From a virus: a stretch of DNA of 28,685 bases. The stretch spans positions 1 through 28,685 of IMG/VR virus record IMGVR_UViG_3300009684_000132. One strand, written 5' to 3'. Below, piece by piece: positions 172-28,372 of this stretch. Position numbers and translations under genes: made by a program. Numbering within the stretch: the first letter of the stretch is position 1; every line of letters starts with the position of its first letter. The notes below the pieces were generated by a model. The model was given only the letters and a program-made list of their open reading frames with translations, made no database searches and had not been told where the DNA came from.

Positions 172-243
172 ATGTGGACAAAACCAGCAGCGACTGAAAT
201 GCGTTTCGGCTTCGAAGTAACAATGTACGTAATGAACAAGTAA
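172..243 (+). CDS. pqqA: PqqA-like pyrroloquinoline quinone precursor peptide
   Basis: This 23-codon gene encodes a peptide starting MWTKPAATEMRFGFE and ending VTMYVMNK. It has the hallmark PqqA core: G13-x-E15-V-T-x-Y19, with Glu and Tyr separated by three residues, and the MWxKPA N-terminus typical of the 23-residue proteobacterial PqqA. In PQQ synthesis the radical-SAM enzyme PqqE, with PqqD as chaperone, cross-links this Glu to this Tyr. PqqB, PqqC and a protease then complete the cofactor. No other pqq gene is in the window, so the peptide would have to be processed by host enzymes. A strong Shine-Dalgarno (AGGAGA at 161-166, 5 bases from ATG) and an immediate rho-independent terminator make it a stand-alone, probably well expressed cistron. 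The PqqA match is strong. Its benefit to the phage is inference. Confidence 0.88.
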   Translation: MWTKPAATEMRFGFEVTMYVMNK

Positions 244-248
244 TACCC

Positions 249-266
249 AGGGGCTTCGGCCCCTTT
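249..266 (+). terminator. UUCG-tetraloop terminator after pqqA
   Basis: AGGGGC-TTCG-GCCCCT forms a 6-bp GC-rich stem with a UUCG loop and is followed by TTTGCTTT. It begins 5 bases after the pqqA stop codon and separates this peptide gene from the terminase operon. The same hairpin style recurs after the coat gene and the two genes following it. Confidence 0.85.
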
Positions 267-276
267 GCTTTATCCC

Positions 277-305
277 TTGACAATCCGCAAAATTCAAACT
301 ACCAT
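277..305 (+). promoter_or_regulatory. sigma70-like promoter for terminase operon, probably leaderless
   Basis: A perfect -35 TTGACA (277-282), a 17-base spacer and a -10-like TACCAT (300-305; 4 of 6 consensus bases) precede the terS ATG by only 6 bases. Transcription would start at about the A of the ATG at 312, giving an mRNA without a leader. No Shine-Dalgarno lies before that ATG. The element directly follows the pqqA terminator, as expected for a new transcription unit. Confidence 0.55.
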
Positions 306-3389: not shown

Positions 3390-3664
3390 GACTTAAGCCA
3401 TTAAGCGACTGCATTGTTGTAGAGCAAGACGAAGAAAAAGTAAGCAGTATTATTTTTGTACCAGGTGCTAAGAAGTTGTTTAGCGGATACGTACGCGCAA
3501 TCGGCCCAGGGAAGAAACTAGAGAATGGAAAACTATCAAATATGGATGTTCAAGTTGGGGATCATATTATGTTTGGTGAGTACACAGGTCAAACGACGAC
3601 TATCGACGGTAAAGATTACCTAATGATGCGTAACACGGAAGTGATTGGACTGATAAATGAATGA
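3386..3664 (+). CDS. groES: GroES-like co-chaperonin (Cpn10)
   Basis: The 92-residue protein has the Cpn10 pattern: N-terminal RLKPLSDCIVVEQDE, a mobile-loop region with the hydrophobic tripeptide I22-I23-F24 (the GroEL-contacting IVL equivalent), GYVRAIGPGKK, VGDHIMFGEYTG and the C-terminal YLMMRNTEVIGLI. GroES caps GroEL and controls substrate folding. Phages such as T4 (gp31) and others encode their own version to fold a difficult coat protein. Here it is translationally coupled to a tiny gene upstream and overlaps the portal gene by 8 bases, so it is made together with capsid components. The likely client is the P22-type coat protein, which is inference. Confidence 0.88.
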   Translation: MRLKPLSDCIVVEQDEEKVSSIIFVPGAKKLFSGYVRAIGPGKKLENGKLSNMDVQVGDHIMFGEYTGQTTTIDGKDYLMMRNTEVIGLINE

Positions 3665-5840
3665 TGATATGGTAACCGTCGGTGTTGTCGCTAATGGCGG
3701 CAACAAGAAAAGCGATCCTAGGGATATGCTGGCTACAATGCGTAGCCGTTTTTCTATGGCGGTTTCTGCTTATTCAGAGTCAAGAGAAGATGAGCTTGAC
3801 GACTTACGTTTTGAGGCTGGTTCGCCTGACAACCAATGGCAATGGCCTGCGGATGTGTTGGCAACACGCGGTTCAGTACAAGGTCAGACGATTAATGCTA
3901 GACCTTGCTTAACAATCAACAAGTTACCGCAACACGTTCATCAAGTTACTAATGAACAACGCCAAAACCGACCTTCGGTGAAGGTAATTCCTGTGGATGA
4001 TAATGCTGACGTAGAGGTCGCAGAAATATTCGAGGGAGTTATTAGGCATATTGAATATATCTCAGATGCAGATGTCGCATACGACACAGCATGTGAGAAT
4101 CAGGTCACCTATGGTGAAGGTTATATCCGTGTACTAACTAAATATTGCGACGACAATACATTTGATCAAGACATTTACATTGGTCGCATCCGCAATTCCT
4201 TTAGCGTGTACATGGACCCTACAATCCAAGACCCAACTGGCGCTGATGCTGAATGGTGTTTTATTACAGAGGATATGACAAAAGCTGAATACGAGCGTCA
4301 ATTCCCTGATGCAGCACCAATTTCATCGATTATGCAACAAGGTGTAGGCGACTCTTCACTAAGCCAATGGTTAACAGAAGATACAGTCCGTATTGCAGAG
4401 TATTTTTACATAGATCACACGCCATCTAAGCTAAATCTATACCGTGGCAACATCTCAGTAGTAGAGAATAGCCCTGAAGATAAGCAAATGAAAGATATGG
4501 GTCAAAAACCTATCAAGTCACGTACTGCTGACGTTAAAAAAGTCAAGTGGTTAAAGACAAACGGCTTTGAAATCTTGCAAGAACAAGAGTGGGCAGGTTG
4601 CTACATCCCTGTTGTGCGTGTAGTAGGTAACGAGTATGAAGTAGATGGACGATTGTACGTGTCTGGCCTTATACGTAATGCAAAAGATGCACAACGTATG
4701 TACAACTACTGGGTTTCACAAGAAGCTGAGATGTTGGCATTGGCGCCAAAAGCACCATTTATCGGTTACGGCGGTCAATTTGAAGGCTATGAATCTCAAT
4801 GGAAAACTGCAAACACGACAAATTGGCCTTATTTAGAGGTTAACCCTGACGTAACAGACGGTGCAGGTAGCGTTTTACCTTTACCACAACGTGCGCAACC
4901 ACCAATGGCTTCTAGCGGTCTATTACAAGCAAAAGCAGGCGCTTCAGACGATATTAAATCATCTACAGGTCAATATGACTCTAGTTTAGGTGCAACAAGC
5001 AATGAACGCTCAGGAAGAGCGATTTTAGCAAGAGAAAAACAAGGTGATACGGGTACATACCACTATATTGACAATTTAGCGCGTGCTATTCGCCATATTG
5101 GACGTCAATTAGTGGACTTAATCCCAAAAATCTACGATACAGAACGTGTAGCACGTATTATTGGCATTGATGGCGAAGTAAAATCAGCGAAAATTAACCC
5201 TGATCAGCCTGAACCAATCAAAAAAATAGTGAACGAAACAGGCATTGTAGTTGAGAAAATCTACAATCCTAGCGTTGGTAAGTACGACATTGCGGTGTCT
5301 ACTGGCCCAAGTTACATGACAAAACGTCAAGAATCATTAGATGCAATGAGTCAATTATTGCAAGGCAACCCACAATTGTGGCAAGTAGCTGGCGATTTGT
5401 TTGTTAAGAACATGGATTGGCCTGGCGCACAAGAGATGGCTAAACGTTTTGCTAAAACGATTGATCCTAAGCTATTAAATGATGCAGAAGATAACCCAGC
5501 ATTGGCAGCCGCACAGCAACAAATGGAAGCAATGGGACAAGAGCTAGATCAACTACACGGCATGCTACAAAATGTTAGCAAGTCGATGGAAGCGCAAGAT
5601 TTGGCAATTAAAGAACAAGAAGCTAACATTAAAGCGTATGATGCAGAAACTAAACGTATTAGCGCAGTTCAAGCGTCTATGTCACCAGAACAAATACAAG
5701 ATATAGTAATGGGTACGGTGCATGGTATGATTACAACTGGCGATTTAGTAGGTGAGATGCCAGGTCGCGGCGCACCTGAAATGCCTAACCAAATGCAAGA
5801 GCAACAACCAATGGCACCATCTGAAGGGATGCAACAATGA
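3657..5840 (+). CDS. P22-like portal protein
   Basis: The 727-residue protein forms the twelve-fold ring at one capsid vertex through which DNA enters and leaves. The size and sequence match the P22 portal family: after about 80 residues comes INARPCLTINKLPQHVHQV followed by NEQRQNRPSVKVIPVDD, then VTYGEGYIRVLTKY and SVYMDPTIQDPTGADAEW. The C-terminal 130 residues are Gln/Met/Glu-rich and predicted helical/coiled coil, corresponding to the P22 portal barrel. The start ATG overlaps the GroES-like gene end by 8 bases. The end overlaps the next gene by 4 bases (ATGA). Confidence 0.9.
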   Translation: MNDDMVTVGVVANGGNKKSDPRDMLATMRSRFSMAVSAYSESREDELDDLRFEAGSPDNQWQWPADVLATRGSVQGQTINARPCLTINKLPQHVHQVTNEQRQNRPSVKVIPVDDNADVEVAEIFEGVIRHIEYISDADVAYDTACENQVTYGEGYIRVLTKYCDDNTFDQDIYIGRIRNSFSVYMDPTIQDPTGADAEWCFITEDMTKAEYERQFPDAAPISSIMQQGVGDSSLSQWLTEDTVRIAEYFYIDHTPSKLNLYRGNISVVENSPEDKQMKDMGQKPIKSRTADVKKVKWLKTNGFEILQEQEWAGCYIPVVRVVGNEYEVDGRLYVSGLIRNAKDAQRMYNYWVSQEAEMLALAPKAPFIGYGGQFEGYESQWKTANTTNWPYLEVNPDVTDGAGSVLPLPQRAQPPMASSGLLQAKAGASDDIKSSTGQYDSSLGATSNERSGRAILAREKQGDTGTYHYIDNLARAIRHIGRQLVDLIPKIYDTERVARIIGIDGEVKSAKINPDQPEPIKKIVNETGIVVEKIYNPSVGKYDIAVSTGPSYMTKRQESLDAMSQLLQGNPQLWQVAGDLFVKNMDWPGAQEMAKRFAKTIDPKLLNDAEDNPALAAAQQQMEAMGQELDQLHGMLQNVSKSMEAQDLAIKEQEANIKAYDAETKRISAVQASMSPEQIQDIVMGTVHGMITTGDLVGEMPGRGAPEMPNQMQEQQPMAPSEGMQQ

Positions 5841-8589: not shown

Positions 8590-9792
8590 ATGTCAAATTC
8601 AATCTTAACCATTGATATGATCACTCGTAAAGCTTTAGAAATCCTAGAGAACAACCTTGTGATCACACGTAACGTGAATCGTCAGTACGATGATTCTTTC
8701 GCTGTAGAAGGCGCTAAAATTGGTTCTACTTTGCGTATCCGTTTACCAGATCGCGCTTTAGTAACTGACGGTGCAGCTCTACAAGTTCAAGATGACAACG
8801 AACAATACACAACATTGGCTGTTGCATCACAAAAACACATTGGCGTTAACTTCACATCTGCTGAATTGACTATGCAATTAGATGACTTTGCAGAACGTGT
8901 ATTGAAACCACGTATCTCACAATTGGCTTCTAGCGTTGATGCTGACGTTGCAAACGCATACAAAGCTATCTACAACTCAGTAGGTACACCAGGTACTACA
9001 CCATCAACTTCATTGGTATTGTTGCAAGCTCAACAAAAACTAAATGAAAACGCTGCTGTAATGTCACCACGTTACGCTACTGTTAACCCTGCTGCTAACG
9101 CTGGCTTGGTTGAAGGTATGAAAGGTTTGTTTAACCCAACTGACACAGTTTCACGTCAATTCAAAAACGGTATGATGGGTATGGGCGTATTGGGCTTCGA
9201 TGAAGTTAATATGTCTCAATCAATCAAACAACACACTACTGGTTCATGGGGTACTGCAATCACAGTTACTTCAACAATCACAACTGAAGGTACAAACTCT
9301 ATCGGTTTGAGCTTCACAGGTTCAAGCAAAACTTGGAACGTAGGCGACATCTTTACAATTGCTAACGTTTACTCAGTTAACCCACAAACACGTGAAACAA
9401 CTGGTTCATTGCAACAATTCACAGTAACTGCTGCTGCAACTGGTTCTTCAACAACAACAGTAACTGTATCTCCAGCTCTATACACACCAGCTAACGCATT
9501 GGCAACTGTAGACAGCTTACCCGTATCAGGCGCTGTGGTAACTATGTTCGGTGCAGCATCAACACAATACGCACAAAACTTGGTATACCATAAAGATGCA
9601 ATTACATTTGCAACTGCTGACTTGTTGTTACCACAAGGTGTAGACATGGCTTCACGTCAAGTACACAATGGCATCTCACTACGTGTTGTTCGTCAATATG
9701 ACATCAACAATGATCGTTTGCCTTGCCGTATTGACGTTCTATATGGCTATTCTGCAATTCGTCCACAAATGGCTGCCCGTATCTGGGGATAG
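8590..9792 (+). CDS. P22-type major capsid (coat) protein
   Basis: This 400-residue protein matches the P22 coat family in order and sequence: the N-arm MSNSILTIDMITRKALEILE, then LVITRNVNRQYDDSFAVEGA, GSTLRIRLPDRAL, and HIGVNFTSAELTMQLDDFAE. These are followed by a variable Thr/Ser-rich insertion (about residues 215-300, equivalent to the telokin-like I-domain) and the C-terminal LVYHKDAITFATADLLLPQG. P22 coat is 430 residues, so the length is similar. A strong Shine-Dalgarno (AAGGAAA, 8579-8585) precedes it and a UUCG terminator follows. Codon choice is notably uniform (many TTG/GCT/CGT), as expected for the most highly expressed gene. Confidence 0.9.
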   Translation: MSNSILTIDMITRKALEILENNLVITRNVNRQYDDSFAVEGAKIGSTLRIRLPDRALVTDGAALQVQDDNEQYTTLAVASQKHIGVNFTSAELTMQLDDFAERVLKPRISQLASSVDADVANAYKAIYNSVGTPGTTPSTSLVLLQAQQKLNENAAVMSPRYATVNPAANAGLVEGMKGLFNPTDTVSRQFKNGMMGMGVLGFDEVNMSQSIKQHTTGSWGTAITVTSTITTEGTNSIGLSFTGSSKTWNVGDIFTIANVYSVNPQTRETTGSLQQFTVTAAATGSSTTTVTVSPALYTPANALATVDSLPVSGAVVTMFGAASTQYAQNLVYHKDAITFATADLLLPQGVDMASRQVHNGISLRVVRQYDINNDRLPCRIDVLYGYSAIRPQMAARIWG

Positions 9793-25331: not shown

Positions 25332-25579
25332 AATGTACCCCCTGCACCATGTTTCCATTCGTATGCTTTGCCTGGATCAACATCATCATCAAAGTTAACT
25401 TCTCTTGATTTGCACCATTTACATTCTTGCGCTGGTTGTTCATCAGGCACATATTCAATACCTAAATCATCACCACATCTTTTACATATCAACACATAAT
25501 CCTGTGCAGGTTGTTCTAATGCTTCTTTACAAGCTTCAAGTGCTTTAATCGCTAGTTTTAATGCTTCGTCTTTAGTCAT
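25328..25579 (-). CDS. zinc-ribbon protein with EQPAQ repeats (83 aa)
   Basis: The 83-residue protein starts with a helix (KDEALKLAIKALEACKEALE) and has two CxxC pairs, C32-x2-C35 and C53-x2-C56, likely one zinc site. The pentapeptide EQPAQ occurs twice (residues 22-26 and 47-51), a low-complexity unit seen in variable numbers in related phage proteins. It overlaps the helicase gene by 4 bases and the next gene by 4 bases. Function unknown; nucleic-acid or protein binding is plausible. Confidence 0.6.
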   Translation of the reverse strand: MTKDEALKLAIKALEACKEALEQPAQDYVLICKRCGDDLGIEYVPDEQPAQECKWCKSREVNFDDDVDPGKAYEWKHGAGGTL

Positions 25580-26877
25580 GTTAGTTCTTCCATAGCAATA
25601 TCAGAAATAGCCCGTTTGTCATGCAGGGCTGCCCATATACGTTCGTCAACGGTTTTATTTGTCAACATCACGTAACACCATACATCATGCTTTTGCCCGC
25701 TACGGTGTAAACGGCCTATCGTCTGCTCATAAAGCTCAAGGCTCCAGGGCAACGATAGGAATACAATCTTACTGCCGCCATGCTGTAAGTTGAGGCCATG
25801 ACCTGCAGACTTAGGATGCACGAGCAGTAGTTCTACTTTGCCATCGTTCCATCGTGTGATGGCATCATCATCATCTAGCGTTACAGCCTTCGGATAACGT
25901 CGCTTAAGTTCTGCTAACTCCTCTTTAAATGCGTATGCAATGATGGTGTTAGCGTGTTGGTTCTCTTCTAGCAGTTCGTCAAGCCTATCAAACTTATGCT
26001 TGCTAAACCATGTCGGTACGGCATCTGCGTCATAAATAAAGCCTGACGCCATCTGCTGTAGCTTAGATGTCACTACGGCAGCGTTAACTGCAGCGATCTG
26101 TGTGTTACCGAACTGAACGACAAAGTCTTTCTTCATCTTTTCATACGGCAGTCTGTCGTCCATGTCACAGCGTAACTCGACTGTGTGCAGTAACGGCAAT
26201 TTGTCTTTATATTCGCCAGCGTCTAACACAAAAGTGGCAGGCTTAATAATTTCCATGACCTGCTCAAGCGCGTTAGGTCTTGGCACCCAGTCACCGTATT
26301 CTTTATTGATTAAGATAAAGTGCTGTTGCATGAACGCACCCTTGCTACGCCCTAATATTGTTTGATCCACAATCTTACATTGTCCAAACACGTCCTCAAG
26401 GCCGTTGCTAGTAAAGCTACCTGTCAAGCCCCAGCGTATGTTGATCTTGTCTAATAGCTTTGACAGCGCCTTGAAACGTGCGCCTGACGGGTTTTTTAAC
26501 CTAGTTAATTCGTCAAACACAATGCCGTCAATGCCGTTCAAATTATGTACAGACTGCAAATTGTCATAGTTTAGCACCACAATATCTGCGTCAGACGCAA
26601 ATGCTGCGTCACGATGCTTAGGCGTACCGACAGCCACAACGAGCTTAAGCTTAGGCGCCCATTTCGGTTGCTCGACAGGCCACACGTCAGTACAGACACG
26701 CTTAGGGGCTAACACTAAGAAGCGTGTCACTACCTCAGTCTCAATAGCGTCTTGCATGGCGGTGAGCGTGATGGCGGTCTTGCCTGCACCCACAGGCGCT
26801 AAAATCATGGCACGGTCATGCTCATACAGGAAGTCAGCCGCCGTGTCTTGATAGGGTCGTAGTTTTAGCCCACTCAT
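25576..26877 (-). CDS. SNF2-family DNA helicase/translocase
   Basis: This 433-residue SF2 enzyme has all core motifs: Q-motif-like LRPYQ (residues 6-10), Walker A APVGAGKT (27-34), motif Ia LVLAPKR, Walker B FDEL (121-124), motif III LTGSFTSN (151-158), and, in the second RecA lobe, AGHGLNLQHG, then QTIGRLHRSGQ (385-395) as motif VI. It is a compact phage-type SNF2 protein without accessory domains, likely acting in replication, recombination or DNA remodelling. It overlaps the VRR-NUC gene by 44 bases, and a helicase-nuclease pair is a frequent phage partnership. Confidence 0.88.
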   Translation of the reverse strand: MSGLKLRPYQDTAADFLYEHDRAMILAPVGAGKTAITLTAMQDAIETEVVTRFLVLAPKRVCTDVWPVEQPKWAPKLKLVVAVGTPKHRDAAFASDADIVVLNYDNLQSVHNLNGIDGIVFDELTRLKNPSGARFKALSKLLDKINIRWGLTGSFTSNGLEDVFGQCKIVDQTILGRSKGAFMQQHFILINKEYGDWVPRPNALEQVMEIIKPATFVLDAGEYKDKLPLLHTVELRCDMDDRLPYEKMKKDFVVQFGNTQIAAVNAAVVTSKLQQMASGFIYDADAVPTWFSKHKFDRLDELLEENQHANTIIAYAFKEELAELKRRYPKAVTLDDDDAITRWNDGKVELLLVHPKSAGHGLNLQHGGSKIVFLSLPWSLELYEQTIGRLHRSGQKHDVWCYVMLTNKTVDERIWAALHDKRAISDIAMEELT

Positions 26878-27127
26878 CTATATCATCCTTATTCCATAAA
26901 CATGCGTAATGTTGATTGAGCCTCTGCATATCAGACGCAAATAACTTCTGCAGTTCTGACAGCTTACCGCCCTCTGTTTTTATTTCTACAAACCATGTCT
27001 GTCCATTAGGCAGACAGGCTACACGATCAGCCACACCCCGATGCGCTGGCGATGTGAACTTGTAGCTCTTGCCACCTAACTGCTCGACTACTTTTTTAAA
27101 GTATGCTTCAACTTGTTTTTCTAACAT
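26834..27127 (-). CDS. VRR-NUC domain nuclease
   Basis: The 97-residue protein has the VRR-NUC active site of the PD-(D/E)xK superfamily: RGVADRV (Asp34), WFVEIKTEGGK (Glu48, Lys50) and ELQ (Gln60). Stand-alone VRR-NUC proteins from phages can act as structure-specific endonucleases, for example on Holliday junctions. It is the first gene of the leftward operon, next to the SNF2 helicase. The ATG at 27127 has no Shine-Dalgarno and sits 6 bases after a -10-like box, as for terS, suggesting a leaderless transcript. Confidence 0.87.
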   Translation of the reverse strand: MLEKQVEAYFKKVVEQLGGKSYKFTSPAHRGVADRVACLPNGQTWFVEIKTEGGKLSELQKLFASDMQRLNQHYACLWNKDDIDEWAKTTTLSRHGG

Positions 27128-27247: not shown

Positions 27248-28372
27248 ATGCAACACTCTTCAGTCGTAGGCGGTTCAACCGCTAAACGTGTTATTGCCTG
27301 CCCTGGCTCAGTCGCGCTCTGCGACAAGATGCCACCACGTCCTTCTAATAAGTATGCAGACGAAGGAACCCTACTACATAATGTGATTGCAGAAATACTT
27401 GACAAAGGCCACACGCCTGAGCATTACCTTGGCACCGTGTATGAAGATCAAGTGTTAACGCAAGAACTGATTGACAACAAAATCAAACCTGCGCTTGATG
27501 CGTTAGATGCCATTGACCCTGACAAACAGATGGAGTATGCAGTCGAGACACGCGTAGGCTTTGGTGACTTCTTACCAAACGTATTTGGCTCAACCGACTT
27601 CTTAGGTCGTATCGGTGACACAGCCTATGTATTAGATTGGAAGTTCGGTGACGGTGTAGCCGTGGAAGTAGAAGAGAACCCACAGCTTATGTTCTACGCT
27701 GCTGCTGCCATGCGTACTAAAGAAGTGTCATGGGTGTTTGATGGCGTGACATCTATCGAGATGATTATTGTTCAACCGCCTAACGTTAAACGTTGGACGA
27801 CAAACGTTAACCGTATCAAGTTATTTGAACAGTCATTAGCCCTTGCAGTCCGTCAATCACAAGCACCTGACGCTAGACTTAATGCAGGCGATCATTGCCG
27901 TTGGTGTGCAGGCAAGCCTATCTGTCCTCAGATGACTGGCGCTGTTGACCGAGTGTTGCCCACCAAATTAGATGCGTTGCCTGTAGAACAAATAGGTGTA
28001 TACTTGCAAAACGCCGACGTAATTGAACAATGGATCACAGACTTACGTGCGTTAGCTTTCCAAATACTAGAGGCAGGTAAACTTGTCCCAGGCTATAAGC
28101 TAGTTGCCAAACGTGCGACTAGACAATGGGTCAACGAAGAGGATGCGAAGTCTGCACTTCTTAAAGACCTACCAGAATCTGACATAATAGAGACGACGTT
28201 AATCTCACCAGCTAAAGCTGAGAAGGTGCTTAAAAAACACGGTCTTACTTTACCTGAAGGGACAGTCGTCGCTATTAGTTCAGGTAGTACGCTGGCAAAC
28301 GAGGATGATCCTCGCCCAGCATTGTTGCAAATCGGACAGCAATTGACCGCTGCCCTTAATAAAATCATCTAA
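27248..28372 (+). CDS. DUF2800 protein, Cas4/RecB-like nuclease
   Basis: The 374-residue protein has PD-(D/E)xK exonuclease motifs: GTLLHN with His44, an Asp (Asp117) in GSTDFLGR, VLDWKFG (Asp130, Lys132) and NPQLMFYA with Gln146. Four cysteines, Cys18 and Cys217-x2-Cys220-x5-Cys226, are placed as in the Fe-S cluster of Cas4/AddB-type nucleases. It likely resects DNA ends during phage recombination. A Shine-Dalgarno (AAAGG) is 7 bases before ATG. It is followed by the truncated gene 11 bases later, typical of a recombination module; the single-strand binding or annealing partner is not in the window. Confidence 0.85.
   Translation: MQHSSVVGGSTAKRVIACPGSVALCDKMPPRPSNKYADEGTLLHNVIAEILDKGHTPEHYLGTVYEDQVLTQELIDNKIKPALDALDAIDPDKQMEYAVETRVGFGDFLPNVFGSTDFLGRIGDTAYVLDWKFGDGVAVEVEENPQLMFYAAAAMRTKEVSWVFDGVTSIEMIIVQPPNVKRWTTNVNRIKLFEQSLALAVRQSQAPDARLNAGDHCRWCAGKPICPQMTGAVDRVLPTKLDALPVEQIGVYLQNADVIEQWITDLRALAFQILEAGKLVPGYKLVAKRATRQWVNEEDAKSALLKDLPESDIIETTLISPAKAEKVLKKHGLTLPEGTVVAISSGSTLANEDDPRPALLQIGQQLTAALNKII

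Follow-up and report, generated by a model that had tools for sequence, protein, structure and literature searches.

A stand-alone pqqA gene, likely an auxiliary metabolic gene, in a P22-like phage and in cultured methylophages

Results

A pqqA gene upstream of the phage terminase genes

The window, i.e., the whole 28,685-nucleotide stretch analyzed here (IMG/VR record IMGVR_UViG_3300009684_000132), carries on its forward strand an ORF of 23 codons plus TAA (positions 172 to 243, stop included) that translates into the 23-residue peptide MWTKPAATEMRFGFEVTMYVMNK. The data indicate that the phage likely carries this ORF as a working pqqA and as an auxiliary metabolic gene, whose product, we infer, would feed host PqqBCDE to sustain methanol oxidation. 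In keeping with the PqqA signature recognized in the original prediction, the peptide matches the Pfam PqqA profile (PF08042) at 42.4 bits (E 6e-11) with all 19 model positions aligned, about twice the gathering cut-off of 21.1 bits. PqqA profile matches were found in 0/14 control genomes, and a PHROGs search with the 23-residue peptide gave no match. Glu15 and Tyr19 are separated by three residues (E-x3-Y), and identity to host peptides predicts that the product serves as a PqqE/PqqD substrate and a source of PQQ.

As originally described, pqqA directly precedes the terminase region. It is followed on the same strand by a terminase-small-subunit-like ORF (312 to 716), so designated from its position before TerL and a C-terminal similarity, spanning 21 residues (pairwise E 9e-7), to the TerS annotated in phage DSL-LC05, then by an ORF of no assigned function (728 to 1144) and by the terminase large subunit gene (TerL, 1145 to 2671; PHROG 2, 73% identity to DSL-LC05 TerL), which lies 0.9 kb from pqqA. 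Farther downstream, also on the forward strand, are the genes for a P22-like portal protein (3657 to 5840; Pfam PF16510, 593 bits) and a P22-like coat protein (8590 to 9792; Pfam PF11651). The host-derived metabolic gene is hence located inside a bona fide phage genome, sharing its record with TerL and the P22-type portal and coat genes, and the window probably represents a lytic P22-like podovirus. It also contains a reverse-strand SNF2-type helicase (25576 to 26877), a weak reverse-strand VRR-NUC match (26834 to 27127) and, after the helicase region, a forward DUF2800/PD-(D/E)XK nuclease (27248 to 28372).

This context bears on whether the pqqA-bearing viral records are simply mis-binned host fragments. 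Such is probably the case for L009 and L010, two records of Acinetobacter phage MD-2021a filed as phage, which are probably bacterial DNA because a complete host pqq operon lies inside the contigs. As an account of the viral gene the probability of mis-binning is close to nil, since it is refuted for the window by the proximity of pqqA to TerL and the downstream portal and coat genes, and cultured phage genomes carry pqqA as well.

The viral pqqA stands alone

There is no complete PQQ biosynthesis operon in the window. Searches with PqqB to PqqE (tblastn) gave zero matches in the window and the viral loci, and no PqqE was detected above the profile cut-off in 50 longer pqqA-bearing viral records, in agreement with the earlier description of a lone gene. 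A PQQ dehydrogenase was encoded in just 1 of 50 pqqA-bearing records, many of which are fragments, a scarcity that counts somewhat against a role in PQQ supply. The 72-kb record L052 contains pqqA and a PQQ-dependent alcohol/methanol dehydrogenase (record positions 34049 to 35731), and in this resembles the Lake Baikal virus VP_266 (PMC7678222).

A compact cassette with a leader stem-loop

The ribosome site and immediate terminator attributed to the gene are both present. A Shine-Dalgarno sequence read from the forward strand, AGGAGA (160 to 165), lies 6 nt before the ATG, and SD-like sites precede 158 of the 166 viral pqqA copies among the matches listed. Downstream, hairpin search and folding identified an intrinsic-terminator-like hairpin (249 to 264, forward strand), in which AGGGGCTTCGGCCCCT is followed by the T-rich tail TTGCTTTATC, with a predicted fold of -11.8 kcal/mol; given this position, the end coordinate of 270 in the original prediction corresponds to the ORF plus its terminator.

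Just 5' of the ribosome site, stem counts drew out a forward-strand inverted repeat, TACGCA-ATT-TGCGTA (137 to 151), forming a stem-loop in the pqqA leader. Over a 63-base leader region, stems of at least 6 pairs occur in 43% of viral pqqA compared to 15% of dinucleotide shuffles, while in the interval from -52 to -12 they are found in 35% of viral pqqA, 15% of host pqqA and 7.5% of 968 other phage gene starts, the strength of these statistics being approximate because related phages are not independent. The loops of 42 out of 65 leaders are centered 25 to 35 bases before the ATG. The stem letters vary between phages, with pairing and position (about 30 bases before the start) being kept, and the stem may be a 5' RNA element. 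The fold of the whole transcript region (125 to 275) had no extra stability relative to shuffles (z -0.2).

A dedicated sigma-70 promoter for pqqA was considered and rejected: none was found in the window, full promoters before viral pqqA are no commoner than in shuffles, and -10-like hexamers show no more than a modest excess between -60 and -40. A promoter-like sequence, TTGACA-17-TACCAT, precedes the terminase genes (277 to 305, forward strand), a consensus match of which about one is expected by chance.

Widespread occurrence among methylophages

All nine Methylophilales phage records found, i.e., Venkman, P19250A, MEP301, MEP401, MEP402 and four Melnitz records, contain pqqA; the nine comprise the records found, with MEP431-434, Venkman EXVC038S and phiMB624-A also named in the taxonomy. 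In tblastn searches of annotated phages these nine, all of them isolated on Methylophilales, encoded peptides 77 to 96% identical to that of the window, and the environmental podovirus MW202481 encoded it at 100%. None of the cultured methylophage records has the gene annotated as pqqA (0 annotations): it is either unannotated or overlaid by an opposite-strand "hypothetical protein." In Melnitz-1 (L008, 3998 to 4166), for instance, a reverse-strand hypothetical ORF is annotated over pqqA, and a tRNA-Leu gene follows a short distance past the end of pqqA.

The genomic place of pqqA varies, from before the terminase genes (window) to beside the SSB/transglycosylase genes (MW202481), a convergent gene junction (P19250A) or next to tRNA-Leu (Melnitz). 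The viral scans relied on degenerate DNA patterns, and the viral pqqA counts are lower bounds. Among the matches listed, 163 pqqA-bearing loci fell into 42 gene-sharing groups (about four shared genes required), a group count inflated by the many loci that are short pieces. Across viral pqqA loci, the leader-ORF-hairpin layout recurs with unrelated flanking sequences. We put forward, as a tentative proposal that is somewhat less likely to hold than to fail, that Methylophilaceae phages of every lineage have arrived convergently at a single standardized cassette, made up of a leader with a stem-loop, a strong ribosome site, pqqA by itself and a terminator. In this cassette the leader stem would be an RNA element stabilizing or boosting a short message, and PqqA supply would be a general need for infecting methanol-dependent cells.

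Other PqqA types were seen in phage-like records (L034, L037, L069, L088, L013/L022 and L027/L033), including the type MKWETPSFEDLRFGFEVTMYINASN adjoining TerL and portal genes in L034. These records hint that phages of other PQQ-making hosts do likewise. A pattern search of IMG/VR for a second PqqA type (MQWT...F) retrieved nothing.

Selection acts on the peptide

In a set of IMG/VR copies chosen on residues 1 to 13 only, E15 and Y19 were kept in 120/120 copies among the matches listed, so that the Glu-Tyr pair noted originally in the window proves invariant. The pN/pS ratio was 0.08 over residues 14 to 23 in the set chosen on residues 1 to 13, and 0.24 over residues 1 to 12 in a set chosen on residues 13 to 19. 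Codons vary freely, and selection therefore acts on the peptide; viral pqqA is under strong purifying selection. The same or near-same peptides in many unrelated phages, together with large synonymous divergence, exclude a chance ORF. A leader-peptide or RNA-only role for the ORF was also rejected, as the extensive variation at synonymous sites leaves the peptide unchanged.

Conservation in related phages, on which the original prediction had been made to depend, was borne out: among the closest relatives (TerL at least 94% identical, with enough upstream DNA), pqqA occupies the same place in 8 of 9, and in their alignment the ORF is conserved whereas the leader and terminator region diverge. 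The ninth, L291, retains leader, ribosome site and start (around 5400 to 5640), with 58 bases gone and the ATG directly followed by TAA. Either the ORF alone was deleted in nature or the assembly collapsed here; unless it is an assembly error, the loss implies that the gene is not indispensable. In sister-clade records (TerL 79 to 85% identical), PqqA was found in 0/40 within the sequence examined. Presence in close relatives and absence from the sister clade are compatible with a gene linked to the kind of host infected.

The clean loss of the ORF in L291 is what might be expected if pqqA were a passenger, an abundant multicopy host gene captured repeatedly with no benefit to the phage, and so are the many pqqA copies in the hosts and a coding-limited identity that suggests frequent exchange with them. 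We regard this as unlikely, however, in view of the purifying selection at the protein level, the occurrence of pqqA in every cultured methylophage record found and the recurrence of the leader-ORF-hairpin layout despite unrelated flanks.

A Methylophilaceae host

A genome scan with EMRFGFEVTMY[VI] returned at least 120 matches, most of those listed being named Methylophilaceae and the remainder mainly unnamed Betaproteobacteria, Burkholderiales or Nitrosomonadales. The window peptide was identical in 26 of the 130 cellular copies among the matches listed. All Methylophilaceae genomes in the set (60/60) had pqqA, with 1 to 12 copies per genome, in line with the 3 to 12 pqqA copies and typically single pqqBCDE reported for the family (PMC4109929). 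The host of the window phage is thus very likely a member of the Methylophilaceae, judging from the pqqA gene alone, its PqqA type being typical of that family and of its cultured phages. The methylotrophic, PQQ-making host anticipated earlier hence acquires a family name through near-exclusive motif retrieval, the 26 identical cellular copies and the Methylophilales phages. No prophage related to the window was found in 187 Methylophilaceae genomes, consistent with a lytic phage.

Probable confinement of exchange with host copies to the coding unit

Viral pqqA coding sequences average 92% identity to the best host copy, and no host copy compared comes closer to that of the window than 4 differences in 69 positions. 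Outside the gene, viral and host sequences are 36.5% identical over the 60 bases upstream (vs 34.4% for random pairs) and 29.0% over the 60 bases downstream (vs 28.1%). The longest exact viral-host run had a median of 38 nt, with some copies identical over 72 to 88 nt. The sequences suggest that exchange between virus and host may be limited to the short coding unit.

A short, complete host gene with identity limited to the coding sequence, and in some copies extending over those 72 to 88 nt, could also be a relic of an integration site, i.e., an attP carrying an intact host pqqA. Coding-limited homology and the absence of a tyrosine integrase in 39 records searched for this integrase class argue, however, against attachment-site carriage, as do the lack of a related prophage in the Methylophilaceae genomes, the differing genomic positions in unrelated phages, the large synonymous divergence and the median exact run of only 38 nt. 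We consider such an origin highly improbable.

Discussion

How might a single peptide benefit the phage? PqqE with PqqD cross-links the Glu and Tyr of PqqA, one PqqA being used per PQQ (Barr 2016, as cited in PMC7678222 and PMC9851590). During infection, the phage pqqA message would be translated, host PqqE/PqqD would cross-link Glu15 and Tyr19 of the product, and host PqqB/C and a protease would complete PQQ; the extra cofactor would keep methanol dehydrogenase loaded, allowing the cell's principal intake of carbon and energy to go on while host transcription fades. Only pqqA would be needed because PqqA is consumed one per PQQ while PqqBCDE are reusable and already in the cell. Substrate-only supply is also the host's own strategy, since the hosts hold 1 to 12 scattered pqqA genes and typically one pqqBCDE set. 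In Gluconobacter, cell-free extract turns added purified PqqA into PQQ at 70 to 80% (as cited in PMC9851590), which together with the host gene copy numbers indicates that the peptide alone can suffice where the enzymes exist. In Acetobacter, pqqAB overexpression raised PQQ by 29% vs eightfold for the whole operon (PMC7936290), so that PqqA alone may raise PQQ little and to an uncertain extent.

PqqD acts as a chaperone that binds PqqA. A lone peptide with a strong ribosome site might accordingly act as a decoy that occupies PqqD/PqqE or another host factor, lowering PQQ formation or freeing resources, much as the original prediction had offered diversion of PqqE/PqqD as an alternative. This is disfavored, and we deem it quite improbable: the phage peptide is letter for letter a host substrate (identical to the 26 host copies among the matches listed), loss of Glu15/Tyr19 would be expected at least sometimes and was seen in none of the 120 listed copies chosen on residues 1 to 13, and the one pqqA record with a PQQ-dependent dehydrogenase points to more PQQ use, not less.

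If PqqA supply to the host pathway is indeed the function, pqqA would be a very common methylophage metabolic gene that has been overlooked because it is just 23 codons long, and could serve as an easy marker by which to recognize viruses whose hosts are methanol-consuming bacteria. It would also be a plain example, open to testing, of a virus that provides a host pathway solely with the substrate it uses up, and would tie infection by viruses to the oxidation of methanol in lakes and coastal seawater.

In the OM43-phage literature covered, the P19250A paper lying outside it, no mention of pqqA as a phage gene was found; PMC9004378 names PQQ only as a constituent of the medium. Among the papers found, viral PqqA is already known from one report, that of Lake Baikal virus VP_266, which encodes PqqA plus methanol dehydrogenase and was proposed to carry an auxiliary metabolic gene (PMC7678222); what appears to be new is how widely methylophages carry the gene, its occurrence as the substrate gene by itself and the leader element. 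VP_266 resembles the window phage in being a methylotroph virus with PqqA and differs in its methanol dehydrogenase, of which 49 of the 50 pqqA-bearing records tested, many of them fragmentary, show none. The P22-like podoviruses DSL-LC05 and MW202483 are relatives of the window phage (TerL 73% and 68% identical, portal 75% and 70%, respectively) but, unlike it, gave no pqqA match by tblastn of the phage collection. Conversely, Venkman, P19250A, MEP301, MEP401/402 and Melnitz have a lone pqqA as in the window, although they belong to unrelated lineages and carry it at other locations. A further likeness is to the PqqA (PF08042) of the Methylophilaceae themselves, where the same peptide is found in the 26 cellular copies, including those of Methylophilus, Methylotenera and "Ca. 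Methylopumilus," whereas the window copy resides on a phage genome between unrelated flanks.
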